Program-made: the position numbers and the translations under genes | In this document: positions 2,750-28,805 of the stretch, piece by piece | How the letters are laid out: every line of letters starts with the position of its first letter | Position numbering within the stretch: position 1 is the first letter of the stretch | Virus record (IMG/VR): IMGVR_UViG_3300000829_000041 | Span: 1 to 30,490 of that record | From: a virus | Direction: 5' to 3' (one strand) | Length of the DNA: 30,490 nt | Notes under the pieces: generated by a model | The model's database searches: none | What the model was told of the DNA's origin: nothing | Seen by the model: the letters and a program-made list of their open reading frames with translations, nothing else

Positions 2750-2842
2750 ATGAGGCGGGCGGGGCCAGCTCTTACCGGTGACGAGCCGGAAGACGTGATT
2801 GTGAAGGGTAGCAGAAAGAAAATTCAGGTGGTGGATAAATGA
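2750..2842 (+). CDS. Small peptide gene, 30 aa, coupled to the next gene
   Basis: ATG at 2750 follows an AGGGG ribosome site by five bases, and the TGA overlaps the ATG of the downstream gene (ATGA). The peptide starts MRRAGPALTGD and ends in a module EPEDVIVKGSRKKIQVVDK. The last 19 residues and stop recur, 13 of 19 identical, at 3269-3328. Conservation at protein rather than DNA level (41 of 60 bases) supports real coding. No family recognised. Confidence 0.6.
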   Translation: MRRAGPALTGDEPEDVIVKGSRKKIQVVDK

Positions 2843-3039
2843 AAGTTTACATTGTGGAGTTTTTTAAGGGAGCCAACGAAGGCGGATCCGAGACGTTAAA
2901 AATCGAGGCCGAAGGAATATCTTCGGCTGACGGAGGGGCAACTTTGCAATTTCACTCTATTGGCAATCGCGGCCTGGCCGCAATCATTCCCAGCAATAGA
3001 GTCCGGTACGTCCTTGAAGAAGGTTCTAAGAAGGCTTAA
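2839..3039 (+). CDS. Hypothetical protein, 66 aa
   Basis: Starts MKVYIVEFFKGANEGGSETLKIEAEG, with its ATG overlapping the stop of the 30-aa peptide gene, indicating translational coupling. It looks like a small beta-rich soluble protein (VYIVEFF; TLQFHSIG; GLAAIIPSNRVRYVLEE); the end pattern IIPSNRVRYVLEE resembles small phage proteins of unknown role. Its 3' end overlaps the convergent gene at 3026-3244 by 14 bp. It is part of the accessory unit behind operator 3. Confidence 0.65.
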   Translation: MKVYIVEFFKGANEGGSETLKIEAEGISSADGGATLQFHSIGNRGLAAIIPSNRVRYVLEEGSKKA

Positions 3040-3244
3040 CTGCTTCGACTAGCTCACGGGCTTTTTCGACAATCAGGCTGGCTTGCTGAAGGTCAAGTAT
3101 TTCGTTAGCCGCCAGGGCGGAAATCTCGAAACGGGTTCCGTCTCGTAGGAGAAGGTGATAGCTAGAGTTTGGCCCCTGGACGCAAAGGCGAACTTCACCA
3201 GGCGAGAAAAGCGTTTGGCCCACGCGGGTTAAAGAATTGAACAT
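3026..3244 (-). CDS. Hypothetical protein, 72 aa
   Basis: ATG at 3244, starting MFNSLTRVGQTLFSPGEVRLCVQ. The first two thirds look like a beta-sheet fold with LCVQGPNSSYHLLLRDGTRFEISA; the last third is an amphipathic helix (ILDLQQASLIVEKARELVEAVKPS). No family recognised. It is convergent with the 66-aa gene on the other strand and lies downstream of the late operon, separated from the last tail gene by the peptide remnant and the CRISPR-like repeat. Confidence 0.6.
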   Translation of the reverse strand: MFNSLTRVGQTLFSPGEVRLCVQGPNSSYHLLLRDGTRFEISALAANEILDLQQASLIVEKARELVEAVKPS

Positions 3245-3268: not shown

Positions 3269-3328
3269 GAGCCGGAGGACGTGATTGTGCAGGGGCGACG
3301 CAAAGATATTACGGTGATTGACGACTAG
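3269..3328 (+). pseudogene. Remnant of the peptide module found at 2783-2842
   Basis: Encodes EPEDVIVQGRRKDITVIDD followed by TAG, aligned without gaps to the end of the 30-aa peptide gene at 2750-2842 (13 of 19 residues identical, 41 of 60 bases identical). Upstream the frame is open only back to 3233 and has no ATG, GTG or TTG start before the module, so this copy appears to have lost its 5' end. It stops exactly where the CRISPR-like repeat begins, suggesting that recombination or insertion fixed both borders. Confidence 0.55.
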
Positions 3329-3364
3329 TTGCACCGGGGTCTCGGCTCCGGTGAGGATTGAAAC
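3328..3364 (+). CRISPR. Solitary CRISPR-repeat-like unit, 37 bp
   Basis: A single unit with the hallmarks of a type I/III CRISPR direct repeat: it begins GTTGCACCGGGG, contains an 8-bp stem (CACCGGGG pairing with CTCCGGTG, one G-T wobble, loop TCTCGG), and ends GAGGATTGAAAC. The final ATTGAAAC is the classic 8-nt crRNA handle. Total length of 37 bp is typical. No second copy or regular spacer follows, no cas gene is in the window, and no T-run follows the hairpin on either strand, so it is not a standard terminator. It lies 9 bp beyond the stop of the last late gene (the stop codon is 3374-3376). Phage solitary repeat units are known to act as RNA anti-CRISPRs; that role here is inferred. Confidence 0.6.
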
Positions 3365-3373
3365 TTGCCGACC

Positions 3374-4066
3374 TTAGCACGTCCGCCTATGCCATGCGAC
3401 ACTTGGAGGTACGTTGGGTACCCAATTACAGTGACACTCTTCCGAATCGCCACCCTCGCCGCCACCACCACTTTCACCACCGGGATTCCCGCCCGCGCAG
3501 GGAGCGAGGGTATCTGTCCCGGTCAGGCGGAAATCAGATAAATTAATTGTGGCGGCAACTGTCGCAGTTCCTCCCACGAAGTTCTGTTCATGCCGCAAAA
3601 GGAGCCGCACCCAGCATGCGGTAACTGCTGTAAACGTCCCTTGTTTTACAAACGCAGTCGGCGCTGGGGTGGATTCTGGTAGGATGTTAGGAGCTGTTAT
3701 CACAATAGAGGCGAGACTGACCCACTCCCCGGCGTTCAGGTATTCAAGGCTGGCGCTGGCACTCCCCGGAGTTGGCTCCAATGTCTCGCCGGGTGGCATC
3801 GAGCAGGGTCCCCCCGGATTACAAACAGCGGCCAGGCTTCCGGTGAACGAGTATCCCGTCAGACTGTGCTGCGTACCCAGATAGATCTGAGCGATCATGC
3901 GCGGTGCTGCGGTGATGTGGCTACAGGCCGGATGACTGGTGGCGGCAGCGTTGACGGTGACTCCCTCCCCAGTGGTGATGTCTTGGGCTGTCCCGTCGCT
4001 TAATTTGGTGGTGATAGCCATGCTCGCCCAGGGCGTACCAAGTGCGTCCGACCATCTATATTCCAC
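3374..4066 (-). CDS. Putative tail appendage protein, 230 aa
   Basis: Last gene of the late operon. The likely start is GTG at 4066, one base after the stop of the tail fibre gene, so the two are probably translated together. It is a Ser/Thr/Gly-rich, beta-type protein (for example LSDGTAQDITTGEGVTVNAAATS and YLGTQHSLTGYSFTGSLAAV) with a Gly-rich flexible stretch near residues 195-210 (GGNPGGESGGGGEGGDSEE) and a Cys-containing tail (ECHCNW). Composition and position fit an accessory fibre, tip or chaperone-like tail protein. No specific family recognised. Confidence 0.6.
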   Translation of the reverse strand: MEYRWSDALGTPWASMAITTKLSDGTAQDITTGEGVTVNAAATSHPACSHITAAPRMIAQIYLGTQHSLTGYSFTGSLAAVCNPGGPCSMPPGETLEPTPGSASASLEYLNAGEWVSLASIVITAPNILPESTPAPTAFVKQGTFTAVTACWVRLLLRHEQNFVGGTATVAATINLSDFRLTGTDTLAPCAGGNPGGESGGGGEGGDSEECHCNWVPNVPPSVAWHRRTC

Positions 4067-4067
4067 T

Positions 4068-6698
4068 TTACAGCCCGATCCCTAACCCAACATCTATTTT
4101 CCACCCGCCATAAGAAGACGATCGCGTGTACTCAGAGTTGTTAGCCACTGACACCCCCGAAAAACCGGCCAGCGCGTTGCCCTGCCCGTCGGCCACCAAG
4201 CCAGGGATGTAGCTAGCCGTCACCACCTCTCCTTGTCGCACAGGGGAATCGAGTACCAGGGCATACGACTTATAGCCAAAGCGCCATGCGCCCTGGACAG
4301 TCCTACCGCTGACAGAAAACCCACCCGTGCCAGCAGGCTCAGGCGGCACAATGGGTAGGCTCCCGGTCTCCGTCAGGGGGAGCAAGACGATATTGCCGCC
4401 CTTGCTCACTTCAATCGCCCCGCGCGCGGGCGGTGTAGAGTCTGTCGCCAGCGCCTCGATCAGAATGTTCTCAATTGTAAACTCGCTCGGAGTTGCCCAA
4501 AAGTCACGATGCAGACCAGCTCCCCAATACCCAGTTTCATCTACATAGGTAGCGTCAGTGTAGCTTTGCTTCGTGCCATTATTTGCCCACGTAGCACCGC
4601 CATCTGTGCTACGCAGTGGCGTGACAGTAATCGTAGCTCCCTGAGCCTCCACAATCGCGCCAACGTGGTCTGTAGCAGCATAAGCGTCGGTGAGATAGAT
4701 GCTTCCAAGAGCCGTACCCCCATCACGCCCAATCACTTTGCCCGTGCCACTGGAGCTCACCAGGTTGATGTTCACGCCACGGAGGTAGAGCTGGCCACCC
4801 GACGAAACGTAGTAGGGAGCCACCCTGTTTAATCTTAACCCTATGGTGAATCGGTTGTTTGTACTGGTTCCTCTGGAGCCGAAATTCACAGTCATGCGTC
4901 CATCGCGCCGCAACGTCGAGTGCACTGCATAGAGGCACGCCCCCGTCGCCCCAGACGTGACCATCTGACCTGCGCCGTTTTGCCCAAGGTTGTTGGCTTC
5001 CTGTGGGTCAAAGTAAGTTTGCAATTCTTGCCAGCCAGCAGGGTAGCCGGAAGCTCCCCCGAATCCCTGGTTGGTGATTGTGGAGTAAGCAGGCTCGAAC
5101 GGCGTAGCTGTAGAGTCGTCTACAAGGGCGTAGGTGTCGGTTCCACCAAAGTAAATGCCACGCCCCGGATTGATGCAGCCCGGCACGGTTAGCATTGCAG
5201 CAAGGTACGCGCCCGCCTGGGGAGAGGCAGGCGCGAGGTGTGGCGATTGGAGATAACACCTTAGAAACGGACGCACGATACTCCCGCTCCCCTCTACAAC
5301 CGAGGCGGGAATAATCTCACACGCGACCACTTTTGTTCGAGTGGCAGGAGCCCCAACATCATCCCAAAACGAGATTTCGGCGGTCGAAAGATCAGCTTGA
5401 ACCGCAGGAGTGATCTTGTGCCAAGCGACAAGCCCAGAAGCGGCGATCCGAAAATCCGCAAAACCGCCAGAGGTATCTATCTGACCCCGACTGATGCGAG
5501 GAGAGTAAGGCGACGAAGGGAAAACGCCATCCCAGATAATCGCCCCCATCTCAAGGGCGCTTCCAGCGGTTGGGTGGATACCATCATAGATCAGATTTGG
5601 GTCGAGCATTGTCTCGGTGCCCATCGCCCCCTGCTGCCCCACAATCACGTCGGGATCCAGTAGATAGTGGCACCCAGGGATGTCACCCCATTCAACCCCC
5701 GCCGCCTGAGCCGCCGCATAAGTTCGGAGGTTATTGTTCAAGATCACACGCTGGGCATTGCGCGTGCCCCAGTTGGGCACCGTATCCGACCAGCGTGTGT
5801 CAAACGGGGTCACTGTCGATATCGCGCATAAAAGCGCAGGCGCGGCAAGCTTCACAGCGGCAAAGAGGGCAATCGCCGCCGTTTTATAGCTTGCCGTAGA
5901 ATACTCACCGCCACGAAGATCGTTCACCCCGTGAGCATTCACAAAGTGGGTCGCTTTGTCTTTGAAGTACACAAAAGCGGGGTTTTCCGGTCCGTCCACT
6001 TGCCCTTGTGCCGTCGTGATTTTTGTCGAATCTTCACCCATGTTCACCGACCCGATAAGCCGCCCTTGCAGGCCGCTCTGGTACGCTCCTGCAAACCATG
6101 CTTGATTCCCCGTCGTGCCGCCATCGGTGATCGAGTTCCCCGTTAAAATAACCGCTGGAGTCCCATCGGGGGCATCTTGGGCAATAAGTGCAGCATGGAA
6201 GATGCTTTTTTGCGCAGCTCCCACGGCGATAGTAGCCCCTAAAGTCGTCACCTTGGCAGTCAGGGCACCATCGAGTGTAGCCCCCTCTTCGTACCCGTCA
6301 CTGTCCAAGGTGGCATAGTCGGGGCCGTGATAGAGCGGGCCGTTGGCAATAAGGCCGTTGGTGCGTCCGCCCGCCGAAAGGACATAGTAGCGGAGCTCGT
6401 AGGAGTCTCCTTTTGCCAGCGGAGTCGAAAGCGCAAGCGTGTCACTCACGACCATGCCCCGAGCCCCTGTCACCGACGAAGCCGCGCCACCCAAGAAAAG
6501 AAAGCTTTGGAGAGTAGCGCCCACGACAATGGAGGCAGCGATAACCTGGGAGCCTGCCCAAAGGTCAAAGGAGATCTTCACGGATGATGTTGCGCAGGAT
6601 GCAACTTCACGAGCGCGAATCAGTTGGTAAGGCTGTTTGGTCGTGCTGTCAAAAGTTCCGGCACGACCACGGACAGAACAAGGACGTATCACCGACAT
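4068..6698 (-). CDS. Tail fibre/spike with SGNH-hydrolase domain, 876 aa
   Basis: Probable receptor-binding and carbohydrate-modifying tail protein. Residues about 180-385 contain the three signature blocks of the SGNH/GDSL esterase superfamily: GNSITDGG (nucleophile Ser189), HGVNDL (the GxND block, about 256-261) and YDGIHPTA (catalytic Asp372 and His375). Such domains deacetylate or cleave esters on surface polysaccharides. The remaining 480 C-terminal residues are beta-rich and repetitive, typical of a fibre or lectin-like tip, ending in WKIDVGLGIGL. The ATG at 6698 follows a GAGGAG site inside the end of the holin-like gene. Located after the lysis-type genes and before a smaller appendage gene. 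Confidence 0.8.
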   Translation of the reverse strand: MSVIRPCSVRGRAGTFDSTTKQPYQLIRAREVASCATSSVKISFDLWAGSQVIAASIVVGATLQSFLFLGGAASSVTGARGMVVSDTLALSTPLAKGDSYELRYYVLSAGGRTNGLIANGPLYHGPDYATLDSDGYEEGATLDGALTAKVTTLGATIAVGAAQKSIFHAALIAQDAPDGTPAVILTGNSITDGGTTGNQAWFAGAYQSGLQGRLIGSVNMGEDSTKITTAQGQVDGPENPAFVYFKDKATHFVNAHGVNDLRGGEYSTASYKTAAIALFAAVKLAAPALLCAISTVTPFDTRWSDTVPNWGTRNAQRVILNNNLRTYAAAQAAGVEWGDIPGCHYLLDPDVIVGQQGAMGTETMLDPNLIYDGIHPTAGSALEMGAIIWDGVFPSSPYSPRISRGQIDTSGGFADFRIAASGLVAWHKITPAVQADLSTAEISFWDDVGAPATRTKVVACEIIPASVVEGSGSIVRPFLRCYLQSPHLAPASPQAGAYLAAMLTVPGCINPGRGIYFGGTDTYALVDDSTATPFEPAYSTITNQGFGGASGYPAGWQELQTYFDPQEANNLGQNGAGQMVTSGATGACLYAVHSTLRRDGRMTVNFGSRGTSTNNRFTIGLRLNRVAPYYVSSGGQLYLRGVNINLVSSSGTGKVIGRDGGTALGSIYLTDAYAATDHVGAIVEAQGATITVTPLRSTDGGATWANNGTKQSYTDATYVDETGYWGAGLHRDFWATPSEFTIENILIEALATDSTPPARGAIEVSKGGNIVLLPLTETGSLPIVPPEPAGTGGFSVSGRTVQGAWRFGYKSYALVLDSPVRQGEVVTASYIPGLVADGQGNALAGFSGVSVANNSEYTRSSSYGGWKIDVGLGIGL

Positions 6699-7138: not shown

Positions 7139-7386
7139 CGCCAACCTCGGATTTTTTCAATGGCAATCCCGCTCACTGCCGTGATCTTCTTGCAAAGGAT
7201 GGGCAAAACTTGACCTTGGACGACATCGTAGGCCAGCGCGTTGCTATCATCGCCGTCGACAGGTACCAGCGTTACGGTACCAGCGGCCATAAAGTGGAGC
7301 ACGGCGGGTTCAAAAGCAGTGCCCACCACAGGCTGGAAGTGGACACGGGCGACGCGATCTGGATCAAAAGAGGGACGTGTTGACAT
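7135..7386 (-). CDS. Hypothetical small structural protein, 83 aa
   Basis: Starts MSTRPSFDPDRVARVHFQPV with an AAGGAA ribosome site. It is a soluble, beta-type sequence (AVLHFMAAGTVTLVPVDGDDSNALAYDVVQGQVLPILCKKITAVSGI); the pattern of a short barrel with LPILCKKI...SGI recalls small virion proteins that sit in the tail module of short-tailed phages. No specific family recognised. It lies between the 228-aa virion protein and the membrane proteins, coupled to the latter by a 4-bp overlap. Confidence 0.6.
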   Translation of the reverse strand: MSTRPSFDPDRVARVHFQPVVGTAFEPAVLHFMAAGTVTLVPVDGDDSNALAYDVVQGQVLPILCKKITAVSGIAIEKIRGWR

Positions 7387-7394
7387 AGTTTTCC

Positions 7395-8081
7395 TTAAAG
7401 TTTCCCACCTTGGGAGGTTAACTTCCCGATCTCTGCCGCCAGAGCTTGGATGTCCATGTCTTGGAGTCCCTGCTGCTGGCGATTAAAGGCCACATCGTTA
7501 TCGTAGCCCCGCAAAATATCCTGAGTGAGTGCGCCAGACCGCCCCAGGCTTCGATCCATACTTCCTTGACTTCTAGCCATCTGATCGGCTAGGAACAGGA
7601 CGAGCTGGCGCTTGCGGACTTCCCTCTGGCGGATTCGCTCCACTGCCAGATCATTGGCGCTCTTGGCCCTCATGGCGGCTTGGGAACTCTCGATGGCCGT
7701 CTCCGCACCCACAGTGGCGCTCGATCCGGTAATCCCTCGTCGAGCCATTGAAGAGGCGAGGTTGCTCTTTGCTCGCTCTCCTGCGGCCACACCCGTGGCA
7801 CTAGCGCGATCTAGCTCGGCAGTGTCGTCGGCAGAGCTGGCAAAAGGAGCCTCCAGCATCTGTCGGTAGCTCTGGCTTGCTTCGCGATAGCTCCCCCGAT
7901 CCTCCATCATGTCATCTCGATACAGGGATGCGTCTCTATCATAGAGGTCGCGCTGTCCACTAAGACGATCTCGCTCCGCCCTCTGGCGCTTCTCTGCCGC
8001 GCCGCCGCCACTGCCGACGAGCTGACGTTTGGCGTAGCTGGCAACCAGGGGAGCAACAAAGGGGACTAGATTTAAAGCCAT
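7395..8081 (-). CDS. Internal virion (ejection-type) protein, 228 aa
   Basis: Starts MALNLVPFVAPLVASYAKRQLVGSGGG at ATG 8081, which lies directly after the 25-bp repeat. The N-terminus is hydrophobic, followed by a long charged, Gln/Arg/Asp-rich helical region with many Ser and Ala (about residues 28-180), typical of DNA-ejection proteins of short-tailed phages. The position beside the very large virion protein resembles the small T7 gp14-type ejection protein next to gp15/gp16, although I see no sequence identity that proves this. It begins a new transcription unit if the repeat is a promoter. Confidence 0.6.
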   Translation of the reverse strand: MALNLVPFVAPLVASYAKRQLVGSGGGAAEKRQRAERDRLSGQRDLYDRDASLYRDDMMEDRGSYREASQSYRQMLEAPFASSADDTAELDRASATGVAAGERAKSNLASSMARRGITGSSATVGAETAIESSQAAMRAKSANDLAVERIRQREVRKRQLVLFLADQMARSQGSMDRSLGRSGALTQDILRGYDNDVAFNRQQQGLQDMDIQALAAEIGKLTSQGGKL

Positions 8082-16140: not shown

Positions 16141-16479
16141 CTATTCCATCATTGAGGCGATTAGCCCCACAAAGGCTAAGTGCATTGATTGATCGATGCA
16201 TAACGGACCAACTGTCCACATTTCTGGCGGGCTTTGGCGGTACAGTTTCATCCAGCGCAAATGTAGAGCAAAACGATCTTGAAACCAGTGCTGACACAAT
16301 ATTGCCCCTATAGCCCAGCAAGGAAGGTACCCGCGCCACACAAGAACCCAAAAAGGCAACGAGTAGAACGCAACATGGACAGAGCAAACAATACTATTTT
16401 TACTCTTGGCCTGCATCCAATGATTCTGAAGTAGAAAATCACCAATTAAGTGAGCGATAATCAAATAACTTAGTAACAT
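16141..16479 (-). CDS. DUF3307-like membrane protein, 112 aa
   Basis: Integral membrane protein. The N-terminus LIIAHLIGDFLLQNHWMQAKSKNS (residues 6-29) followed by VHVAFYSLPFWVLV matches the DUF3307 family pattern (HLxGDFxLQ then a second helix beginning with His). Further hydrophobic helices follow (YLPCWAIGAILCQHWFQD; CIDQSMHLAFVGLIAS), and conserved polar residues His10, Asp14 and Gln18 lie inside helix 1. The ATG overlaps the stop of the nozzle gene (TAATG). It is a non-structural type of gene inside the tail module, so probably a moron; its role is unknown, as for the family. Confidence 0.75.
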   Translation of the reverse strand: MLLSYLIIAHLIGDFLLQNHWMQAKSKNSIVCSVHVAFYSLPFWVLVWRGYLPCWAIGAILCQHWFQDRFALHLRWMKLYRQSPPEMWTVGPLCIDQSMHLAFVGLIASMME

Positions 16480-19400
16480 TAGTAGTTCCTCCGAGAAAAA
16501 GGGGTCGCCTCGATGGTGAGGCGACGAAGTCGAAACTCTCCGTAGGTCGCGCCCGTGACCTTGAGCACAAGGGAGCGCCCTTGGGGGCAGTGCGACGTGC
16601 GAAAGCGGGCAACCGCGCGAGGGTTGAGCTGGTAGGTTCTAGCTGCTGCTTCACTGGGATCATCACCCGCGACCGTGAGGATCAGCGTCTCCCCGCTGGC
16701 GATGGTCGCGTCAATTCCCAAGTGGTGGGGCCGGAGCATCTCCTGTCGCGATCCCAAAGGCCGTGTGTCCGCTCGCGGGTTTATGTCCGTAGTTCCCGTG
16801 CCATCGCCCGAGGAGAGCTTGAGGAGCGCGATTTGTCCGCCCGCTGTGCCGAGTGCCACAACAGGGATCTCAGGCCGCGCAGCTCCTCCCACCAAGCTGA
16901 GTCCCGGCCACTTGGTCCAGGCATCAGAGCGAACGCCAAGACACAGAACGGTATCGGCTGTCGTCGAGTTCGCATTGGTCGGAACGCAGACCAGGAGCTG
17001 CTCTGGCGTGGAGATCAGGCTTGAGGCACTATAGGCGGAAGCGGTGGCTCCAGAGCGTGGCGGCAGGGAGTCCTGGACACGAACATCGAGCTGACCCGGC
17101 CACTTGACCAGCCCTTCGTGGGTGAGCCAGTAGAGCGTTCCCTGGTGCTCCGTGATCCCATCCTGAGCCGCCAGCCCGCGCTGGCTGACTTGCTCTAGGC
17201 GGTAGTCCTCAAAGCTCGACCCCGTCAGCGCCCACACGCCGCGCTCCGCGAAGATCAAGAGTGATCCACGGCTTGGCCAGAGCCGCACAATTGAATCGCC
17301 TGCCAGAAGGGGGAGGCGAACCCAGAAGCCCTTCTCAGAGGCGCGTGGGTCTTGCGACTGCGGAAGGTTGATCCGGCTCCAGTAGAGTGCGGCAGGTTGC
17401 TGGCTCTCGACGAGCCACGAGCCAAAGACCTCGCTTTCGGTCGAGAGCCAGACACGCTGATTCCAGATGGCCACAGAGCGCGGTATGTCCGGCGGCTTGT
17501 CGCGCCCCAGGCGAAACGTCTCTGCGCCAAAGAGCCACCCGTCTGGGGTGTTGTCCACCAGCGTGTCCACTGCGGCATCTGTATAGGCTATGTAAGGGTT
17601 TGAGATAGCACGAACATGGGGGTCTACCCCTGTTGCCGCATTGCCCCCCATAGCAAAAGTGCTAGACGAGAACGGCACGATTGCAACAAGGCGACCAATG
17701 GGCTGGGCTCCAGAGCTATCTTCGACGAGTCCACCCCCAAAACGGTAGATAGCTCTATGCGTCGCGCTGGGATTCTTCTTGGCGGGGAGTCGGAGCAGCG
17801 CTCGCCGCTGTTGGTAGCCGGGGAGTATCTCCCCGCTGGGCTTGCTCCCCTCACTCTCGATTGTATTGAGCACCGAAGCGTCGCCTGCTGAATCAATCTC
17901 CACCACTCGATACCAGTAGCGCCGCCCTGTGGCCAGGTTGCCCGGGGAGCGTAGCGCTCCTACCGTGCAGACTGTCGCAGTCCCCGCTTCTTGTAGGTTC
18001 TCGATGAGCACATCCTCACGAATCTCAAAGATCACCCGATCCACCGCCGTGAGATTCTTTTGAAGGTCGCGTAGATCCGCCAGCCCCCAGCCCTCTTCCA
18101 GTGTGGTGTCGAGGGTTTGCGTCCAGTAGATTGTCCCACCAGAGCGCAACCCTAGCCGCACCAGAAGGCCGCTTACACCCGCACCCGTTGTCAGCTCCAG
18201 CGCGAGGGTATCGGTGCCCGACCAGTCCACCGCCGTGATGTCGCTAAATGCCTGAAGTCCTGCCGTCAGGAGTCGTCCCGGAGGAGCCTGCGCGGGGTCG
18301 CTCTGCCCTCCTACGGCACCGCTCGGTGTCAGAGCAGAGCCAGAACCCGCCCAGACCTGGACACTGCCCTGACGAATCGCAATAAGATCGGGGGTTGTCT
18401 TAACGATCTCCAGCTCCATGCGCGGGACAAAGAGCGCCACACGGTTGACATCTGCCCCTTGGTTGCTATTGAGCGCGACAGGTTGAGTAAAGCCCACTCG
18501 GATCGAACGAGGGACTATGGAAAGTCCCCGAATATCCACAAGCTGGCGCACTTGGGTCGAAGCATCGTTTTTCAGAAACGGCGAGCGCCAGGTCTTTGTG
18601 CCGCCAGCGATAGGTGTAGAACCGCCCGTGTCCGAGTAGGCCACCACATCCGCATCCACCACCATCGAGTTACTTGTCGCGTCTTCCGCAGCGGCTTCAT
18701 AGGAAAGCACTGCCACACGGGCATAGCCAGAGGTGTTTCCGGCATTAAGAAGCAGCGGGCCAGAGCGTACCGAGTCTCCCGAGCCTGTGTCCGAATCAAG
18801 CTCCACCGCATTTGCCCCGTTACCATCCTGGACATTAGGAGAGTAGGCCGGAGATCCAGCACGGGTAGACCAGAGCGCCGTCCCCGTGAGGTTCGACCCG
18901 TCCCAGAAGTTACTATCGGACTGAGTGATAGAGCTCATCGGGGCGAGCGTGTCACCCGCTCCCGATGTACTTGGAGTGGTAATTGCGCCTGTGATGAAGT
19001 TTTGACTCCATGTCAGCAAGCCCGGTGAGCTGATTAGGGTCTGGTGGGACAGCTCCAAGAGTGGCTGATCTGGCGCATCGAGCCCAGCTAGGCTCCCAAT
19101 AGCGGTTCCATTGAAAAAGCGGGGGCCATTTACCCCATCCACAATCCAGAACATCCCAAAGCCTTGCGCTGCTTGTACATCACCCGGTGTGACCGTAATA
19201 GAAGTCTGGCCTGTCGGTAGACTCGTAGAGTTTGCCGCCCATGCCCACTTGCGTATCTTTCCATTTGCTGCCACCAGGAGGTAGTCTCCCGCGCCATCGC
19301 TAGCAGAACCCAGCACGTAGACTGCTGTGGGGAGCACCGATGCAAGCTGGTTTACAATCCCTGGGCGCAAACGAATCTCCCCTCCTTCGACGATCACATG

Positions 19401-19496
19401 ATCTGCGCGAGAGAGATAACCCTCAGGAAGTAGCTCCGGGGCAATTGACTCATTGATTCCTTTAAACCCGGTCTCACTGATGCGGATGTCAGGCAT
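16479..19496 (-). CDS. Large tail nozzle/tubular protein, 1005 aa
   Basis: I chose the ATG at 19496 (MPDIRISETGFKGINESIAPELLPEGYLSRADHVIVEGGEIRLRPG), which overlaps the upstream stop by 8 bp; the longer frame would run far into the preceding gene. The N-terminal pattern GxNESxxPELLPEGxxxxxxN-like segment ending in xxRPG is characteristic of podovirus tail nozzle (T7 gp12-like) proteins. The rest is beta-propeller-like, with repeated YWLTHEGL, VWLSTESEVFGSW and RGVWALTGSSFEDYRLEQVSQRGLAA, the last being typical of such tail proteins. It would attach to the adaptor ring and form the tail tip that contacts the host envelope. Confidence 0.75.
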   Translation of the reverse strand: MPDIRISETGFKGINESIAPELLPEGYLSRADHVIVEGGEIRLRPGIVNQLASVLPTAVYVLGSASDGAGDYLLVAANGKIRKWAWAANSTSLPTGQTSITVTPGDVQAAQGFGMFWIVDGVNGPRFFNGTAIGSLAGLDAPDQPLLELSHQTLISSPGLLTWSQNFITGAITTPSTSGAGDTLAPMSSITQSDSNFWDGSNLTGTALWSTRAGSPAYSPNVQDGNGANAVELDSDTGSGDSVRSGPLLLNAGNTSGYARVAVLSYEAAAEDATSNSMVVDADVVAYSDTGGSTPIAGGTKTWRSPFLKNDASTQVRQLVDIRGLSIVPRSIRVGFTQPVALNSNQGADVNRVALFVPRMELEIVKTTPDLIAIRQGSVQVWAGSGSALTPSGAVGGQSDPAQAPPGRLLTAGLQAFSDITAVDWSGTDTLALELTTGAGVSGLLVRLGLRSGGTIYWTQTLDTTLEEGWGLADLRDLQKNLTAVDRVIFEIREDVLIENLQEAGTATVCTVGALRSPGNLATGRRYWYRVVEIDSAGDASVLNTIESEGSKPSGEILPGYQQRRALLRLPAKKNPSATHRAIYRFGGGLVEDSSGAQPIGRLVAIVPFSSSTFAMGGNAATGVDPHVRAISNPYIAYTDAAVDTLVDNTPDGWLFGAETFRLGRDKPPDIPRSVAIWNQRVWLSTESEVFGSWLVESQQPAALYWSRINLPQSQDPRASEKGFWVRLPLLAGDSIVRLWPSRGSLLIFAERGVWALTGSSFEDYRLEQVSQRGLAAQDGITEHQGTLYWLTHEGLVKWPGQLDVRVQDSLPPRSGATASAYSASSLISTPEQLLVCVPTNANSTTADTVLCLGVRSDAWTKWPGLSLVGGAARPEIPVVALGTAGGQIALLKLSSGDGTGTTDINPRADTRPLGSRQEMLRPHHLGIDATIASGETLILTVAGDDPSEAAARTYQLNPRAVARFRTSHCPQGRSLVLKVTGATYGEFRLRRLTIEATPFSRRNY

Positions 19497-20175
19497 CGCG
19501 GCGTGTCCTCCGTGGCACAGGAGCGCCACGCCACTCTGCTTCCCAGATAGGCAACACTGCCGCCAGAGCTGTCTCCGCACCATTTTGCTTGGTGAGCATC
19601 GCGCAGGCATATGCGATAAGGCGGGGGGCGATCTCTACCGGCAAGTCGGCAAAGGAGCCACCTGCGATACCTGGGCGGGGGAAGACAACGCCCTCTAGCA
19701 CCAGTGTGCCCGGTGTAAGGGGGCGAGGACCAAGGAGCACACCGTCGGCCTCTTGGTACACGCGCTCGGGAATGGCTTTATCCTCGACCAGTATCATGGG
19801 GTGGTGAACCTCGTACCATTTTCTGTCGCAGTACTGCACCGGAGTCGAAACCACGGGGTCGCCTTGGCTCCAGCTCCCTTGCCGCACAGTGAACATCCTT
19901 TGGTTTGCTACAGACATGCTCAATCCGGTGAACAAAACCTTCACCGTACCACCTGCGACATCGGACTTCGTTCCCTTGCCAAAGGTCTGGATCACGCCCA
20001 GCTCTGTGAGCCGTTCCTGCCCTTCGTTAAGAAAAATTAGAATCTGCTCTGCCGTTGAAATCTCAGGACTGATCGCCGGGCCTCCATCTGCGGGAAGCTC
20101 CGCCACTTGCGAACCCTCCGCTTCGGCGAGCCGCGACAGCACCTGCGCAATTGCATCATCAACAACGTACGGCAT
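19489..20175 (-). CDS. Head-tail connector or tail protein, 228 aa
   Basis: ATG at 20175 overlaps the stop of the adaptor gene (TAATG); the upstream extension lies inside that gene. Starts MPYVVDDAIAQVLSRLAEAEG; residues about 35-60 contain EISTAEQILIFLNEGQERLTEL, a helix pattern typical of phage adaptor-type proteins that bind under the portal, followed by a beta-rich part (YCDRKWYEVHHPMILVEDKAIPERVYQEADGVLLGPRP) and a C-terminal helix (IAPRLIAYACAMLTKQNGAETALAAVLPIWEAEW). Together with the preceding 224-aa protein it probably joins head to tail nozzle. Confidence 0.65.
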   Translation of the reverse strand: MPYVVDDAIAQVLSRLAEAEGSQVAELPADGGPAISPEISTAEQILIFLNEGQERLTELGVIQTFGKGTKSDVAGGTVKVLFTGLSMSVANQRMFTVRQGSWSQGDPVVSTPVQYCDRKWYEVHHPMILVEDKAIPERVYQEADGVLLGPRPLTPGTLVLEGVVFPRPGIAGGSFADLPVEIAPRLIAYACAMLTKQNGAETALAAVLPIWEAEWRGAPVPRRTRRDA

Positions 20176-20849
20176 TAGCTCCACTCTTTCCGTAGGCGAG
20201 AGTAGGAATCTCCCGCCAGACGATTGACTATCCCCTGTGCCTCGCGGGCTCTGGGTGTGATCATTCCGAGACGCTGGCCGTCGCCGGTTTGGATGCACCT
20301 CAGCTCAGCAGCCTTGTAGGTAACCGCGTCTACAGCCCACTGCGCCAGGGGGAACTCGTCACTAGGGCCAGGAGCCGTCTTTGTCGTGTCCCAGAGCCTT
20401 CCAGGCACAGCAAAGCCCCGCACAGTTACAGCCGCTGCCTTGAGATAGTTAGGGCGAGGGTGAAGATACAGAATGGGGCGCGCAAAAGCAACATAGCGCG
20501 GCGTGCCCAGTTCAGGCGCGGTCTTCCAGTTTGGGAGCACTCGATCTAGATAGGCCGCAGTGACCAGCCCAACCCCTTCGCGTAGCAACGTCTTTTGTCC
20601 CGTAGAGGAAAGCACCTCTACTACCTTGGGCTTGTAGAGATTATCCGGGAGGCACACCTCAGAGACGGGGGTGGTAGTTCCGTCGATATCCAAAGAAAAA
20701 TAGGTGTACCAGGCATCTGCTTCTCGTGCGACCTGGTCGGTCGCATCTATCACTGTTTCACGTAGCCAAATAGGTTCACCGAAAAAGGGGGAGTCAGCCG
20801 ACTCCCCCAGTAGCAAACCAACGCGGCGCTCAAGTTCCCAGCGCTTCAT
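20175..20849 (-). CDS. Head-tail adaptor protein, 224 aa
   Basis: Begins MKRWELERRVGLLLGESADSPFFGEPIWLRETVIDATDQVAREADAWY. The helix pattern ending in a conserved aromatic and the beta segment LPDNLYKPKVVEVLSSTGQKTLLREG recall P22 gp4/T7 gp11-type adaptor proteins: bound helices followed by a YKPKxVE strand. The C-terminus has a long helix (FPLAQWAVDAVTYKAAELRCIQTGDGQRLGMITPRAREAQGIVNRLAGD) that in such proteins lines the portal. It lies between the decoration protein and the second connector, the order usual in short-tailed phages. Exact family not proven. Confidence 0.65.
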   Translation of the reverse strand: MKRWELERRVGLLLGESADSPFFGEPIWLRETVIDATDQVAREADAWYTYFSLDIDGTTTPVSEVCLPDNLYKPKVVEVLSSTGQKTLLREGVGLVTAAYLDRVLPNWKTAPELGTPRYVAFARPILYLHPRPNYLKAAAVTVRGFAVPGRLWDTTKTAPGPSDEFPLAQWAVDAVTYKAAELRCIQTGDGQRLGMITPRAREAQGIVNRLAGDSYSRLRKEWS

Positions 20850-20861
20850 TGTTAAGCCTTT

Positions 20862-21275
20862 CTAAGCGTACCGGGTCTGGCTCCAGTTGCATTCCCACTT
20901 AAAATCCGTCGTATTAGCGCTGGCCTCGATCTTGCACCGAAACTCTTGAAATCGAGAGTTGATCGGGGCGGCGAGCTGGACATTCTGCTCTGTCGTGGTC
21001 ACGGTAATTACGTCGTCTGAGTACGACACGGGGTTCCATGTGCCTCCCGTCAAACGCCCCTCTACAAGAAGCCGAAGGGTGGCAGTAGACGTGCTTGTCT
21101 TGAGAGATCGTAGGACAGCGCGGGCATAGCCGCCCATGATGTCGGCTCCCTCAGTAAGCGTCACCACGCTATCGCCCGTATACGTCGCTGCCCCGTCTTG
21201 CAGAGTCTCAGCGTCCGCATGGAAAACTAATGTTGCATCAACCATCTTCTGTAAATCCTCCAGGGCAAAAGCCAT
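20862..21275 (-). CDS. Probable capsid decoration/cement protein, 137 aa
   Basis: Immediately follows the major capsid gene. Start taken at ATG 21275 (MAFALEDLQKMVDATLVFHADAETL); a GTG at 21287 is an alternative. The sequence is beta-rich with many Thr and Val (YTGDSVVTLTEGADIMGGYARAVLRSLKTSTSTATLRLLVEGRLTGGTWNPVSYSDDVITVTTTEQNVQLAAPINSRFQEFRCKIEAS), like the jelly-roll cement proteins of Bbp16 type that coat podovirus heads. Position and fold suggest that role; homology is not demonstrated. Confidence 0.55.
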   Translation of the reverse strand: MAFALEDLQKMVDATLVFHADAETLQDGAATYTGDSVVTLTEGADIMGGYARAVLRSLKTSTSTATLRLLVEGRLTGGTWNPVSYSDDVITVTTTEQNVQLAAPINSRFQEFRCKIEASANTTDFKWECNWSQTRYA

Positions 21276-21297
21276 CCCTTGCCCCACTATCGCTAAG

Positions 21298-22317
21298 CTA
21301 GCTGTTGGTGCCCTGAATCCCGGTCAGGCGGGCAAACGCACGCTCTTTTTTGGCGAGGCGACCCATTCCCCATTCAATGTGCGCCATTTTCTTAGAACCG
21401 ATCTGGCCCTGCATCTCAGGCACGAGGGTCTGAGGTTGAAACACATCTAGCGCCTCGGGATCGGTGTTGGTGATGTATGCCGATGTGTAGACCGTACCAC
21501 CTGACGCGCCTGTGACTGTCTCCGTTGCAGAGATCACAGGGGTGGAGCCGTCCGCTTTCCATCCAACTTTCTGCACAATCGCTTTTTTGTACTTGAGCAT
21601 GTCGTTGCCAAACTGGTCTTTTTCAATAGAGAACATTCGCCCCATTTGGAGCGCCGTTACCCAGTTAGTAACGAGCTGGTAATCCATTGAGATAACGCAG
21701 TTTTGTCCCTCGCGGCTACCCATCCAGAAAAGCTTTTTGTCGATCTCGCCGCACAAAATAAGTGCGGCGTTTGCACTAAGCCCGCCCGTGGACAGGTTGA
21801 TCGTGGGGGTCTGGGACTTAGAGTTTGGATCGAGCTTGTACTGCGTGGGGTTGTCCAGCATGGTCTTTAGACCAGCAGGGCAGTCCTCGTACGAGACAAG
21901 CGCGGGGTTGGCATTAAACCAAACGTCCTCAATCTCGAAGTCCAGCGCGGTCTGCCACATGGAGAACTGCTCCGCCACGGGGTCGGTGATGAGCTTGCCT
22001 GCCTTGTAGGCACGAAGCTCGGCGACATCGAACTCCAGATCATTGGCAATGATGTGAAGCTCTGCTTCAACGGCGCGAGTTTTACCCTTGGTGGCTTCCG
22101 ATTGCTCATTAAGCTTACGCCAACCGATAGGGGGCAGTCCCGCATGGGTGAGCTGTCGCCCTTGCACCTTCAAGCTCGGATCTGTCCGAAACTTGAAGTA
22201 CTTAATCATCATGTCTCCCGCATAGATGCTTTTAGCGAGCTTCATCGCCATGGCACTATTAGAGAGTTTCGCCCAGTCGTAAAGCGACATGGGAGTCCTA
22301 AAATCAACTACCGACAT
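21298..22317 (-). CDS. Major capsid protein, HK97-fold type, 339 aa
   Basis: Forms the icosahedral shell. The ATG at 22317 has AAGGAG about ten bases upstream. N-terminal helix (MSVVDFRTPMSLYDWAKLSNSAMAMKLAKSIYAG) and acidic helix with ANDLEFDVAELRAYKAGKL are followed by TDPVAEQFSMWQTALDFEIEDVWFNAN and the P-loop-like domain region with LFWMGSREGQNCVISMDYQLVTNWV; the end has PEMQGQIGSKKMAHIEWGMGRLAKKERAFARLTGIQG. Length of about 340 and placement between scaffold and decoration protein fit a short-tailed phage capsid protein. No separate protease gene is visible, consistent with a scaffold-dependent, non-cleaved head. Confidence 0.8.
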   Translation of the reverse strand: MSVVDFRTPMSLYDWAKLSNSAMAMKLAKSIYAGDMMIKYFKFRTDPSLKVQGRQLTHAGLPPIGWRKLNEQSEATKGKTRAVEAELHIIANDLEFDVAELRAYKAGKLITDPVAEQFSMWQTALDFEIEDVWFNANPALVSYEDCPAGLKTMLDNPTQYKLDPNSKSQTPTINLSTGGLSANAALILCGEIDKKLFWMGSREGQNCVISMDYQLVTNWVTALQMGRMFSIEKDQFGNDMLKYKKAIVQKVGWKADGSTPVISATETVTGASGGTVYTSAYITNTDPEALDVFQPQTLVPEMQGQIGSKKMAHIEWGMGRLAKKERAFARLTGIQGTNS

Positions 22318-22360
22318 ACTACTCTGCTCCTTCCGCGCCGAAAGCGCGTTGCAAGTTCCT

Positions 22361-23080
22361 CTACAGCCCTAGGAGACTCCCCCAGTCGCTGTCCTCGTCG
22401 AGCACCTTCCCACCACTCAGGCGGGAAGAGCTTCCACCGGCAGGGACGAACGCGCCCCCATCCTCGGTTTTTGCGGCCACGTACTTGGCTACTGCCTCGT
22501 CCGTGAGCTTCTTAGCGGTCGCGCTCTGGCGGGCCGCGATTGTGCGCAGCGCGTTGGGCTCGATCCCCTGACCTGAGAGCAGCTTGAGCGTCTCCACGTC
22601 AGCACCAGGAAACTCACTGGTCACTTGAGTGAAGAACGCATCGAGCTGTGCAGCCCGCGCCACTTGCTGGGCCTGCGTCTGGGCTTGCTCGCGCTCCATG
22701 CGGGCCGTGGTGGCCTCGACACGCGCTTCGAGCAGCTCGTTGGCGGCTTCCGTGCTCAGCTCGCCCGCCTCGATCCGTGCGCCCAGTTGCTGGCGATACG
22801 GCTCAATGGCCTGAGCGACTTGCTGAGAAAGCGCCGCCTCACGCGCATCTGCCAGGATCTGGGCACGCTCTTCCGGGCTGGCCTGAGAGAGCATCTGCAG
22901 GAGCTCGTCTTGACCCATGGGGGATTCTTCTGCTACGAGAGGCTCCGCCACAGGCAATTCCTCGGTCACAGGTAGCGCCTCGCCCACGGGTTCCGGTGCA
23001 GGCTCGGGGGCAGGCTCGGGCGTAGCGCTGGCAGTGCCAAGCAGCTCGTCTACAGCGTCCATCGGGTTGTCTTCGTCCAT
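22361..23080 (-). CDS. Scaffolding protein, 239 aa
   Basis: Internal assembly scaffold. Residues 1-60 are acidic with repeated PEPAPEPAPEP and VTEELPVAEPLVAEE stretches; residues about 65-150 form a long charged coiled coil (AREAALSQQVAQAIEPYRQQLGARIEAGELSTEAANELLEARVEATTARMEREQAQTQAQ); the end contains a basic helix and a short acidic tail (VLDEDSDWGSLLGL). This bipartite helical, acidic pattern immediately before the capsid gene is standard for scaffolds. ATG at 23080 preceded by AGGAGATAGGAG. Confidence 0.8.
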   Translation of the reverse strand: MDEDNPMDAVDELLGTASATPEPAPEPAPEPVGEALPVTEELPVAEPLVAEESPMGQDELLQMLSQASPEERAQILADAREAALSQQVAQAIEPYRQQLGARIEAGELSTEAANELLEARVEATTARMEREQAQTQAQQVARAAQLDAFFTQVTSEFPGADVETLKLLSGQGIEPNALRTIAARQSATAKKLTDEAVAKYVAAKTEDGGAFVPAGGSSSRLSGGKVLDEDSDWGSLLGL

Positions 23081-23091
23081 TCTCCTATCTC

Positions 23092-24894
23092 CTACATCCT
23101 CTCTTCCAGTTGCGCGGCGATCATCTGGCGCTTCTGGTCTAGCTCTCGCTTCTTGCGGAGCGCTTCGACTGCCTTACTGGCAGCAGGGCTGGCCATGAGG
23201 CCAAAGATCATCTCCTGGGTATCAGGATCAGCGGGGTCGCCCAGAAGTCCCGCAGCCGCCCAGTCTTGAATCGCGGAGTCCTGAGCCTCGGGAGTGCTCG
23301 GGGTCAGGCTTCCCTTCACGACTCGAACCACGGCGCTCCCACCCGCTGTGAGAGCCCCCAGACGAGAGACACTGATCCGTCCTTCTTCCGGGTTCTTGGT
23401 ATCGTCGAGCCCCCAGGCGCGGGGCTCACGCACATACTTGCCCAAGATCACGCCACGGCGACGCGCACGCTCCTCGATAAAGCGCTCCAGGCGGGCGGAA
23501 AACGGGGCGTTCTGGGTGTTGTCGGCATCGAGCGCGATCCGCAGAGCGTAGCCAGAGGGTTTCTCCCCACCCATGTTCATGAGCTGGTTTACGTGGACAC
23601 CTGCGATATCCGACATCTGGCGCTCCAGCACGGCCAGCGCTTCGGGCGTGTCCGAATGAACGGTGGGGGAGGCTGCAAGCTGACCCATGCTTTTCGTCCA
23701 GATCGTGACAAAGTTCCCACTCTCCTCGACCGGCGCTTGGAGCCTCTCCTCGATGTCCGCCCCGCTGCCGTCGTTAGGGTCGCGGAAGAACACGTATTTC
23801 CTGTTATTGCGCTCGGCTAGCCAGCGGCTCTGGAGTAGGTTATAGGAGAACTGGGGCTCGACCAGATCGCACACAATCCCCCGGTGGTAGCACGTCCCCA
23901 CTTGCTCCTGGTACCCCAGGTGCAAGAGCGGGATCATGCCACAGGGTAGCTCGCCTTTGTAGAAGACATCGTTGCCACAGACCACAATCGTGCGCCCTTT
24001 GCGAAAGCGAGCGGTGGCTTTCTCGTACATAAAGAGCACCGTGGGGTTCTTGGTATCCTTGGCGGCCTGGCCGTTAGCTGCCCAGGGTGAAGTGAAGACC
24101 TCTTTGAGTGAGCGCCATAAGTTGGTCGCACCCAGCATGCCTGTCTCAGGAACGCGCCCATAGCGGCGCTCGACCTCGGCGAGGGGCATCTCAACGGCAT
24201 GAATGACCCACTGGCAATCTTCCCACCGTGCGGCTCTGGGGTCGGCGTACACATCCCAGCCCGGTACGATCACCTCGACCAGATCACCCACGGGGCGCTC
24301 TTCGTAGCCGACAATCTCGCCTGTTTTGTCCCACTTGACCGGGACACTGGCTAATGCGGTCGGGTCCCAATACTGCAAGAGGAACGAATCGCCGACTGTC
24401 CAGGACAAGCGCGAGAGCCTCTGGAGCTGGGCGCGTGAGTCGAGCTTGGCGTTGTAGTGCTCCTCGGCGACGCGCAGCTCCTGGGCAGCTCTCTGGTCGA
24501 GGTCGCGCTTGGTCAGCGGCTGGATGAGTGCGCCAGGCTCCATCATGGTGAAGCGCGCAACAGCCATCGAGCCAAAGCCACGGATAAGGTTGGTAGGTCG
24601 CCAGAAGTCTAGGTCGTCTGGGTTGCGTCCATCCTCCAGGGTGCGAGTCGCCGCGTTATACTTCAGGTGTGAGTAGCCACGCTCCGCCGCAATGCACATT
24701 GCCCACTCGGGCTCTAAGTCTTGGCGGGCTTGCATGGCCAGCTCAAAGCGCTGGGTCACTAGCTCGATAAGTGCCTGATCGTCTTCTCCCGCGCTCTTGC
24801 TCACCTGCTGCACAGACGAAGCATCGGGCTCGCTCTCTGGATCGCTGGGATTCAGGAGCGGGGCAGGCTTGGAGCGAGAGAACGGCCAGTGCAT
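23092..24894 (-). CDS. Portal protein, 600 aa
   Basis: Ring protein at the DNA-entry vertex of the head. After a flexible N-terminus (residues 1-35) the core starts RFELAMQARQDLEPEWAMCIAAERGYSHLKYNAATR, which is common in portals of short-tailed phages, followed by FWRPTNLIRGFGSMAVARFTMMEPGALIQP, GDSFLLQYWDP and the stretch EVIVPGWDVYADPRAARWEDCQWVIHAVEMPLAEVERRYG. Later QFSYNLLQSRWLAERNNRKYVFFRD and SGYALRIALDADNTQNAPFSARLERFIEERARRRG are also typical. Located five bp downstream of the coiled-coil gene and just before the scaffold. Confidence 0.85.
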   Translation of the reverse strand: MHWPFSRSKPAPLLNPSDPESEPDASSVQQVSKSAGEDDQALIELVTQRFELAMQARQDLEPEWAMCIAAERGYSHLKYNAATRTLEDGRNPDDLDFWRPTNLIRGFGSMAVARFTMMEPGALIQPLTKRDLDQRAAQELRVAEEHYNAKLDSRAQLQRLSRLSWTVGDSFLLQYWDPTALASVPVKWDKTGEIVGYEERPVGDLVEVIVPGWDVYADPRAARWEDCQWVIHAVEMPLAEVERRYGRVPETGMLGATNLWRSLKEVFTSPWAANGQAAKDTKNPTVLFMYEKATARFRKGRTIVVCGNDVFYKGELPCGMIPLLHLGYQEQVGTCYHRGIVCDLVEPQFSYNLLQSRWLAERNNRKYVFFRDPNDGSGADIEERLQAPVEESGNFVTIWTKSMGQLAASPTVHSDTPEALAVLERQMSDIAGVHVNQLMNMGGEKPSGYALRIALDADNTQNAPFSARLERFIEERARRRGVILGKYVREPRAWGLDDTKNPEEGRISVSRLGALTAGGSAVVRVVKGSLTPSTPEAQDSAIQDWAAAGLLGDPADPDTQEMIFGLMASPAASKAVEALRKKRELDQKRQMIAAQLEERM

Positions 24895-24899
24895 GGGGA

Positions 24900-25355
24900 T
24901 TACTCAGCCGCCGCCAGAAGCTCGACGATCAGAGGACGAAGTGCGGCCTGGTCGTTGGCGGAGAGGGAGCCGTTGGAGAAGATCGCCTCGTTCAAAAGGC
25001 GAGCTGCTGTCTTGAGCGTTGAGGGAGCGTGGTGCAGAGTATCGGCAAGTTTCTTGCGCAGATCTTCCGCTTCAGTCGCGAGAGAAATCTTTTCCGACCG
25101 CAGATCTTCGATGTCTTCAACAACACCACGAATAGGACCACGAATCTCACCAACTGCGGCAGCGTGCATCGAAGCGATTGTTTCACACGCGCCCTCGTAG
25201 GACTCCTTAAACTGACCAAGCCCAAGATCTAGCTCACTAATCTGAGATAGGAGCTTATCGTTCTCGTCGGTCAGGCGAACATTGGCCGCATTCGCCGCCG
25301 CTAGAAGCCCTTCAGGAGTCGTCGCTTCCGCCGCTTTATCTTTTTCAGTTGCCAT
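24900..25355 (-). CDS. Coiled-coil protein before the portal, 151 aa
   Basis: Ala/Glu/Asp/Leu-rich helical protein (MATEKDKAAEATTPEGLLAAANAANVRLTDENDKLLSQISELDLGLGQ...; later EDIEDLRSEKISLATEAEDLRKKLADTLHH) with two predicted coiled coils separated near residues 65-75. No family recognised. Acidic helical proteins just upstream of portals are sometimes additional scaffold or head proteins, so this role is possible. ATG at 25355 has no strong ribosome site and follows the small membrane protein gene by five bases. Confidence 0.6.
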   Translation of the reverse strand: MATEKDKAAEATTPEGLLAAANAANVRLTDENDKLLSQISELDLGLGQFKESYEGACETIASMHAAAVGEIRGPIRGVVEDIEDLRSEKISLATEAEDLRKKLADTLHHAPSTLKTAARLLNEAIFSNGSLSANDQAALRPLIVELLAAAE

Positions 25356-25360
25356 AGTTT

Positions 25361-25594
25361 TTAGTCCAAGTACCTCGGCGCTATCGCCTGGGTCTTTGCT
25401 GCCTCTCGCCGTGCCAGTTGCCTTGCCTGCGTGTTTCGGAGCGCTAGGGTATCAAGGCTCTCGCGCAGGAGCTTCCAGAAGCCGGGCTGAACCTGACCAC
25501 ACCGCAGCAAGCGCAGCTCACTGGCCAGCCAAAGCAAGCCAAGAGCCACGATCCACAACGGTGCGGCCATGATCCAGAGAGAAGAGAGCCCCAT
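25361..25594 (-). CDS. Small membrane protein, 77 aa
   Basis: Starts MGLSSLWIMAAPLWIVALGLLWLASELRLLRCGQ: one hydrophobic helix of about 20 residues (7-26), then a basic, Arg-rich cytoplasmic-like tail (ESLDTLALRNTQARQLARREAAKTQAIAPRYLD). The ATG at 25594 is embedded in the 25-bp repeat element, just as with the 228-aa gene at 8081, so this gene is likely the first of the head operon. A second in-frame ATG is at 25570. No family recognised. Confidence 0.6.
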   Translation of the reverse strand: MGLSSLWIMAAPLWIVALGLLWLASELRLLRCGQVQPGFWKLLRESLDTLALRNTQARQLARREAAKTQAIAPRYLD

Positions 25595-25640
25595 ATCTAA
25601 ATATATGCTCCAAGTGCTGAGCGTCCGTGCTTCGAGTGGA
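25591..25640 (-). promoter_or_regulatory. Promoter-like repeat element, copy 1
   Basis: The 25 bp at 25591-25615 are identical to 8078-8102 and cover the ATG of the small membrane protein. Upstream, about 23 bp further, is a diverged second half (ACTCGAAGCAC, compared with ACTTGGAGCAT). The element follows a rho-independent terminator by about nine bases, which is where a new promoter would be expected. The ATG lies at the end of the AT-rich tract, so a transcript beginning here would have almost no leader. Confidence 0.65.
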
Positions 25641-25648
25641 TGGGTATG

Positions 25649-25674
25649 AAAAAAGCCCCGTCCGTAGCGGGGTT
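25649..25674 (-). terminator. Rho-independent terminator
   Basis: On the minus strand CCCCG and CGGGG arms (25668-25672 with 25656-25660, seven-base loop) are followed by six T. It lies 12 bp after the stop of the Cys-rich gene and ends the recombinase-terminase-HAD transcription unit before the promoter-like repeat. Confidence 0.8.
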
Positions 25675-25685
25675 ATCCTAAAATT

Positions 25686-25892
25686 TCAATCGAAACTTGG
25701 GCCACCTGTCTTGTATTTAGCGACCGGCACATTGGCGAAGATCTTCTGAAGGGAAGTCTGGGGGTTTTCGCAGTCGCACAGAGGGTACGTCCGGTGCGAC
25801 AAGACAATATCCTGAGGCGGGGTTATCCAATGTCCGCAGTTCGCGCATTTCTCCCCCATGACGCGCTGCGCATGCTTCTCTTTCTCGCTCAC
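25686..25892 (-). CDS. Small Cys-rich, zinc-ribbon-like protein, 68 aa
   Basis: Starts at GTG 25892, whose GTGA overlaps the stop of the HAD gene (a longer ATG start at 25916 lies inside the HAD gene). Contains CANCGHW at about residues 16-22 and CDCEN near 39-43, so four cysteines are spaced like a zinc ribbon; the rest is polar. No named family recognised. Coupled to the HAD protein and placed between TerL and the terminator. Could be a DNA- or protein-binding accessory factor for packaging, but this is not supported beyond context. Confidence 0.6.
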   Translation of the reverse strand: MSEKEKHAQRVMGEKCANCGHWITPPQDIVLSHRTYPLCDCENPQTSLQKIFANVPVAKYKTGGPSFD

Positions 25893-26284: not shown

Positions 26285-26312
26285 ACTCTCTTTCCTTGCT
26301 CCCTCTGGAGCG

Positions 26313-28744: not shown

Positions 28745-28805
28745 TCTTCCCCCCGGTTACCATCGAGCGCCACCACACCGCACTGCAAGCAATAAATGAG
28801 ATGAC

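Follow-up and report, generated by a model that had tools for sequence, protein, structure and literature searches.

A solitary type I-C CRISPR repeat unit in an incomplete phage genome: a candidate RNA decoy

The virus record IMGVR_UViG_3300000829_000041 of IMG/VR (positions 1 to 30,490; this whole stretch of 30,490 nucleotides is referred to below as the window) contains, on the plus strand at positions 3328..3364, a 37-nt unit of the CRISPR repeat type, denoted here SRU-A. Judging from the sequence, SRU-A is a genuine, solitary type I-C unit, and its differences from array repeats preserve the structure. The explanation that we consider probable is that the phage mimics a type I-C repeat and that the resulting RNA would serve as a decoy, i.e., as an anti-CRISPR of the Racr type. 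The assignment rests on an exact single copy, on membership in a family of array repeats and on the location of the closest array in a type I-C cas locus.

The sequence of SRU-A conforms to GTTGCACC-N17-GAGGATTGAAAC (the full 37-mer is GTTGCACCGGGGTCTCGGCTCCGGTGAGGATTGAAAC). No second copy at up to three mismatches was found elsewhere in the window (0 in 100 shuffles), no near-copy was found within 600 bp, and spacer periodicity is absent; the original prediction of a solitary CRISPR-type repeat without detectable cas genes thus holds, and the combination of at least two repeats with a spacer that characterizes a CRISPR mini-array is not present. When folded alone, SRU-A forms a hairpin (3332..3353, plus strand) with a 9-bp stem (3332-3340/3345-3353), 1 bp longer than originally described, and a 4-nt loop (3341-3344), with a dG of -15.3 kcal/mol and a z of -2.4. 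About 2% of all 37-mers in the GC-rich window fold as well as SRU-A; the fold by itself is weak evidence, and the strong part is the match to the repeat family. The motif GGATTGAAAC is found in the window at SRU-A only, and SRU-A has no match in Rfam as a known structured RNA. A terminator was rejected, since neither strand has a T-run following the hairpin and the terminator scan called nothing at SRU-A. The type I-C repeat has a single open frame (S-C-T...V-R-I-E-T), which in SRU-A comprises 19 open codons only. Three other viral units, namely the second unit of the same phage (SRU-B, see below) and those of L005 and L088, are read inside ORFs in this one open frame.

Searched in 84,980 species genomes, the pattern GTTGCACC-N15..19-GAGGATTGAAAC yielded 77 stretches; many are arrays with a 70-75-nt periodicity, in which the copy number ranges from 7 to over 100. 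From these arrays, 30 distinct repeats were extracted. The family supplies the repeats of large arrays found in Armatimonadota, Bipolaricaulota, Thermus, Geobacillus, Moorella and Chloroflexota. The array repeat nearest to SRU-A in these genomes, GTTGCACCGGGCCTTCGGGTCCGGTGAGGATTGAAAC, is present in an Armatimonadetes MAG (L081) and a Bipolaricaulota MAG (L016) and is identical at 33 of the 37 positions. Compared by eye with the L081 repeat, a G-C stem pair is swapped to C-G, a C-G stands in place of a U-G, and the loop deviates at a single base; all four differences keep the hairpin, and the remainder is identical. The L081 array is adjoined by genes for Cas2, Cas1c, Cas4, Cas7/Csd2, Cas8c/Csd1 and Cas5d, all with proteins scoring above curated cut-offs, and by a helicase-like ORF at the cas3 position. 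Because this array adjoins type I-C cas genes, the repeat family of SRU-A is assigned to type I-C. In this type, the precursor is processed by Cas5d (Cas5c), which leaves an 11-nt handle (PMC3727216), and Cas5 is likewise named as the type I-C processing enzyme in the study of solitary repeat units by Camara-Wilpert et al. (2023, PMC10651486). Accordingly, the predicted crRNA 5' handle is the 11-nt Cas5d handle AGGATTGAAAC (3354..3364, plus strand) rather than the 8-nt handle named originally; it is invariant in the viral units by virtue of the search pattern, and the predicted cut falls at 3353/3354. SRU-A thus displays the layout of a type I-C repeat, a hairpin and then the 11-nt handle, in a family with arrays beside Cas5d, Cas8c and Cas7.

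The virus record that makes up the window is incomplete. It encodes a terminase, a P22-type portal and a major head protein, and further contains a gene resembling HTH repressors and, of a serine recombinase, the C-terminal portion. The HTH gene is flanked by repeated TTTTATCGCC...GGCGATA inverted elements (882-903, 1212-1235 and 1276-1300), which are probable repressor operators. As originally reported, SRU-A lies between the accessory genes and the end of the late operon: its first base is the last base of a TAG stop codon (3326-3328), and its end is 9 nt short of the stop codon that closes the final gene of the late operon (3374..4066, minus strand, no family match), which is convergent with SRU-A and whose 3' end, in antisense, would follow the handle in RNA. 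The segment that ends in this TAG (3269..3328, plus strand) is an imperfect direct repeat of 2783-2835 (74% identical) and encodes the C-terminal peptide EPEDVIVQGRRKDITVIDD with no obvious start. In the 53-bp duplicate proper (2783-2835 and 3269-3321) both copies encode the same C-terminal peptide, EPEDVIV.G.RK.I.V.D, and the startless second copy runs into SRU-A; a DNA search for this duplicated peptide returned unrelated matches. The nearest same-strand gene upstream is a 66-aa accessory ORF (2839..3039, plus strand), and a 72-aa ORF (3026..3244, minus strand) lies between it and SRU-A. Neither has a family match, and the same applies to the accessory ORFs near SRU-A in general when compared with PHROGs, Pfam, NCBIfam and PADLOC, except for an uncharacterised PHROG matched by 1853-2734. 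No cas or defence model was detected among ten accessory proteins scanned, no known anti-CRISPR family was recognised near SRU-A, and the neighbouring late gene yielded no relatives.

No promoter at the 9/12 threshold points at SRU-A within the 300 nt upstream, the sole match of the promoter scan being at 2960-2987, 340 nt from SRU-A; by eye, a weak TTGTGC-16-TATTAC is discernible at 3285-3312. Transcripts covering SRU-A might originate in the accessory operon or at a promoter immediately 5' of the unit. In the fold model, the probability of the hairpin is 0.99 for the unit alone and about 0.02-0.5 when each side carries at least 30 nt of flank, a single context reaching 0.81; in such contexts the hairpin is mostly outcompeted (mean pair probability usually below 0.5 and often below 0.2), and it does form in modelled short transcripts. 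SRU-B and most of the other viral units keep their stems in context better than SRU-A.

SRU-B was identified through terminase searches, which recovered a contig (IMGVR_UViG_3300000827_000030, L100/L010) that is 100% identical to positions 16316-30490 of the window over 14,175 bp and extends 6.1 kb beyond the window end; the initial 1.9 kb of the extension is also present in another contig (L099), and the tie of SRU-B to the window phage rests on the single contig L100. The unit, GTTGCACCCGGCCCGAAGACCGGGTGAGGATTGAAAC, is located at L100:1647-1683, 4.4 kb beyond the window end and on the minus strand in the window orientation; it is identical to SRU-A at 28 of 37 positions and has a 7-bp stem of its own. 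SRU-B lies within a 40-aa ORF (L100:1577-1699), the ATGA of which overlaps the upstream stop codon, and is flanked, in a replication/recombination operon, by genes for a 305-aa protein that matches the phage recombinase Bet (RecT-like) below the cut-off and for a 512-aa protein. The phage thus appears to carry two diverged units, of which the second was overlooked originally since it lies outside the window.

Scanning IMG/VR with two patterns returned 20 stretches, most of them solitary and a few in arrays, compared to 0 for the reversed control of the looser family pattern. PHROG matches (terminase, portal, head, tail, DnaB helicase) identify the contigs L002, L003, L005 and L006 as phages; L092 has a helicase, and L096 has PHROG matches of unknown function only. 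The unit of L090 and the 36/39-nt matches in L029 and L087 were judged to be chance matches. Across ten distinct viral units, in which the stem equivalent to that of SRU-A covaries, 96.7% of the stem cells are paired and 13 cells are double-changed, compared to 6.0 in shuffles, with far fewer double changes when the partner was slid. This covariation is best taken to mean that the units are undecayed rather than that they evolved in place, because they may derive from different host arrays.

The units recur at gene junctions in a separate phage group with terminase, portal and major head protein genes, represented by L006 and L093 (L006 1801, 1971-2005 and 7366-7400; L093 5281-5317 and 10694-10728; further units in L127-L142); L006 and L093 are 88% identical, in a cluster with 90-100% identity of the head protein. 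Of the 11 contigs in which the site just upstream of a putative TerS gene is fully covered, 9 have a hairpin followed by GAGGATTGAAAC there; two further copies are degenerate (L136) or have 2 mismatches in the 12-nt motif (L138). The stems at this site are alternatives (CGCCGGCC..GGCCGGCG, GGCCGGCC..GGCCGGT/CG and CGCCGGCC..GCCGGCG), and the spacing to the start codon varies. At the site that follows the head gene, units whose stems differ are found in L006, L130 and L134, and others have decayed ones (GAGAACTGAAA); the site of the L006 1801 unit is empty in the otherwise colinear L093. Within this group, units appear to have been gained, altered with compensation, and lost. Across 11 records, drawn from this group and from others, GGATTGAAAC was counted 14 times, always in units or unit positions, and its mirror image 0 times. 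In L006, short runs of GAAAC-like pentamers (GAAACGAAACGAAACGAAAC) directly follow the handle at 1837-1853 and 7400-7432, a pattern that resembles tandem copying of the five bases at the end of the handle.

Several other arrangements were observed. L092 carries two identical solitary units 4 kb apart (533-569 and 4537-4573), the first of which lies 10 bp after a 9/12 promoter (TTGAAT-17-TATGAT) and is followed by an HTH gene. In Desulfovirgula (L071, 3873-3909), a lone repeat is preceded by a cas3-like ORF and directly followed by cas5d; through it, the cas operon may regulate itself. Lone type I-C-like repeats are also present in cellular contigs, namely in Chthonomonas calidirosea (L058, 5413-5449) and in L083 (1697-1733), where they sit just 5' of genes of a housekeeping type, by eye IMP dehydrogenase-like and KdsA-like. 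Cas5d was not detected in seven MAGs with solitary units, L058 and L083 included.

The host searches bear on the original proposal that the unit mimics the repeat of the phage's own host, for which they gave no support: no array with the exact SRU-A repeat was found in the 84,980 species genomes, in which the nearest array repeat has 4 mismatches, and no copy at up to three mismatches was found in 291 Armatimonadota genomes. Comparison of 955 spacers from the family arrays with the window, and of the SRU-A 37-mer with annotated phages and plasmids, gave no credible match. The terminase gave a weak pointer to the host: relatives at E <= 1e-40 were found in 2 of 151 Armatimonadota genomes and in none of 151 from the phylum to which L068 belongs (Chloroflexota), and the N-terminal part alone matches.

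The broader part of the original proposal, a candidate RNA anti-CRISPR, fits the published class of solitary repeat units and appears to be the best hypothesis. We infer a course of events that runs from transcription of SRU-A through binding and cutting by Cas5d to titration and phage protection. Plus-strand RNA of the accessory region would fold into the repeat hairpin; host Cas5d would bind it, cut at the 3' base of the stem (after position 26) and remain on the 11-nt handle. Cas7, Cas8c and Cas11 may then assemble on the phage RNA 3' of the handle, giving a Cascade devoid of a useful guide, whereby fewer Cas proteins would be left for real crRNAs and the phage would be protected. The family identity, the L081 cas locus, the hairpin-preserving differences, SRU-B, the covariation among the ten units, the recurrence at the TerS site and the Racr precedent argue for such a decoy; the lack of a threshold promoter, the weak hairpin in long transcripts, and the failure to find a matching array or an acr family nearby argue against it.

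Another view is that SRU-A is a non-functional relic, a host repeat captured by recombination beside a scrap of a duplicated gene and not yet decayed. The unit abuts the imperfect 53-bp duplicate, is convergent with the late operon, has no good promoter and a hairpin that is weak in context, and some units at the post-head-gene site of the other phage group have visibly decayed. However, the conserved ends and the complete 9-bp stem of SRU-A are intact despite the divergence of the upper stem from known arrays, the same phage has a second, different and intact unit, and viral units as a class change in sequence yet keep their stems. We regard a relic as unlikely.

The placement of units between stop and start codons in operons, such as SRU-B between the RecT-like gene and the next gene, the L006/L093 units that precede the putative TerS gene or follow the head gene, and the L092 unit between its promoter and the HTH gene, is compatible with Cas5d cut sites for gene regulation, whereby host Cas5d would trim phage mRNA at operon junctions or signal the presence of host CRISPR, and titration would be secondary. 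No same-strand gene lies downstream of SRU-A, though, the presence of sites varies (as at L006 1801, empty in L093) and such regulation would fail in hosts without type I-C, which makes this role quite improbable. Still more doubtful is a mini-array in which the sequence past 3364 would guide an attack on the host or on competing phages: mini-arrays have been described in viruses (PMC6858448, PMC11656645) and a type I-C repeat with the following RNA could yield a crRNA-like product, but the pseudo-spacer originally suggested at this place does not hold up, with only 9 nt of non-coding sequence before the late-gene coding sequence, no second repeat and, by reading, dissimilar sequences 3' of SRU-A and SRU-B. 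The least credible option is that SRU-A serves as an attachment site through which the phage integrates into CRISPR arrays of its host, even with a large serine recombinase encoded by the phage and with repeat-like sequences that mediate such integration of some viruses (mentioned in the discussion of PMC10651486), given that SRU-A and SRU-B differ at 9 of 37 positions and are oppositely oriented, and hence are not attL and attR, and that the recombinase is about 27 kb from SRU-A in the window, its start being about 3.3 kb from SRU-B.

Returning to the decoy, the units per phage number two in the window phage and two or three in L092, L006 and L093. A tentative extension, which we hold to be possible and no better than that, is that phages spread several different type I-C units across operon junctions, so that each long mRNA would also consume Cas5d as a single-turnover sink; the Racr strategy would then be distributed and embedded in mRNAs, with a diversity that might cover several host alleles. 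SRU-A adds an example of type I-C repeat mimicry in a phage with a probably uncultured host, and suggests that one phage may carry several diverged mimics inside operons. If this layout is general, screens for intergenic, promoter-driven units would miss members such as SRU-B in its 40-aa ORF; positional conservation combined with compensatory changes could separate working decoys from relics without experiments.

Among known systems, the L081/L016 type I-C repeat shares with SRU-A the 37-nt length, the 9-bp stem, the first 11 and the last 18 bases, and differs by the four inner-stem and loop changes and by its occurrence in arrays with spacers, in L081 next to cas genes. Virus-borne mini-CRISPR arrays (PMC6858448) are likewise viral CRISPR repeats without cas genes but have at least one spacer between repeats, whereas SRU-A is one repeat with no spacer. 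The closest counterpart is the class of solitary repeat units (SRUs) described from 2,103 viral cases in IMG/VR3 and other sources (PMC10651486): nine tested candidates inhibit, acting as RNA anti-CRISPRs (Racrs), for which competition with crRNAs for Cas proteins is the proposed model; Cas6f cuts RacrIF1 and, together with Cas7f, is trapped by it. Like these units, SRU-A matches a CRISPR array repeat, has no full or partial repeat nearby and no array partner, is viral, intergenic and not cas-associated (as scanned in the ten accessory proteins), and keeps the hairpin and handle. SRUs are often directly downstream of a promoter, with a location within 250 bp among the criteria for Racr candidates, whereas SRU-A is known from its sequence and has no threshold promoter upstream. 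RacrIC1, which acts against type I-C and is located in a Bifidobacterium pseudocatenulatum prophage 11 nt downstream of acrIC5, is, by its description, also a type I-C mimic, and its placement just after a gene is comparable to that of SRU-B and the L006/L093 units; unlike RacrIC1, SRU-A has no recognised acr homologue beside it. SRU-A is a new example of a described class, not a new kind; two diverged units in one phage, together with units in ORFs and at operon junctions, appear to go slightly beyond the published description.
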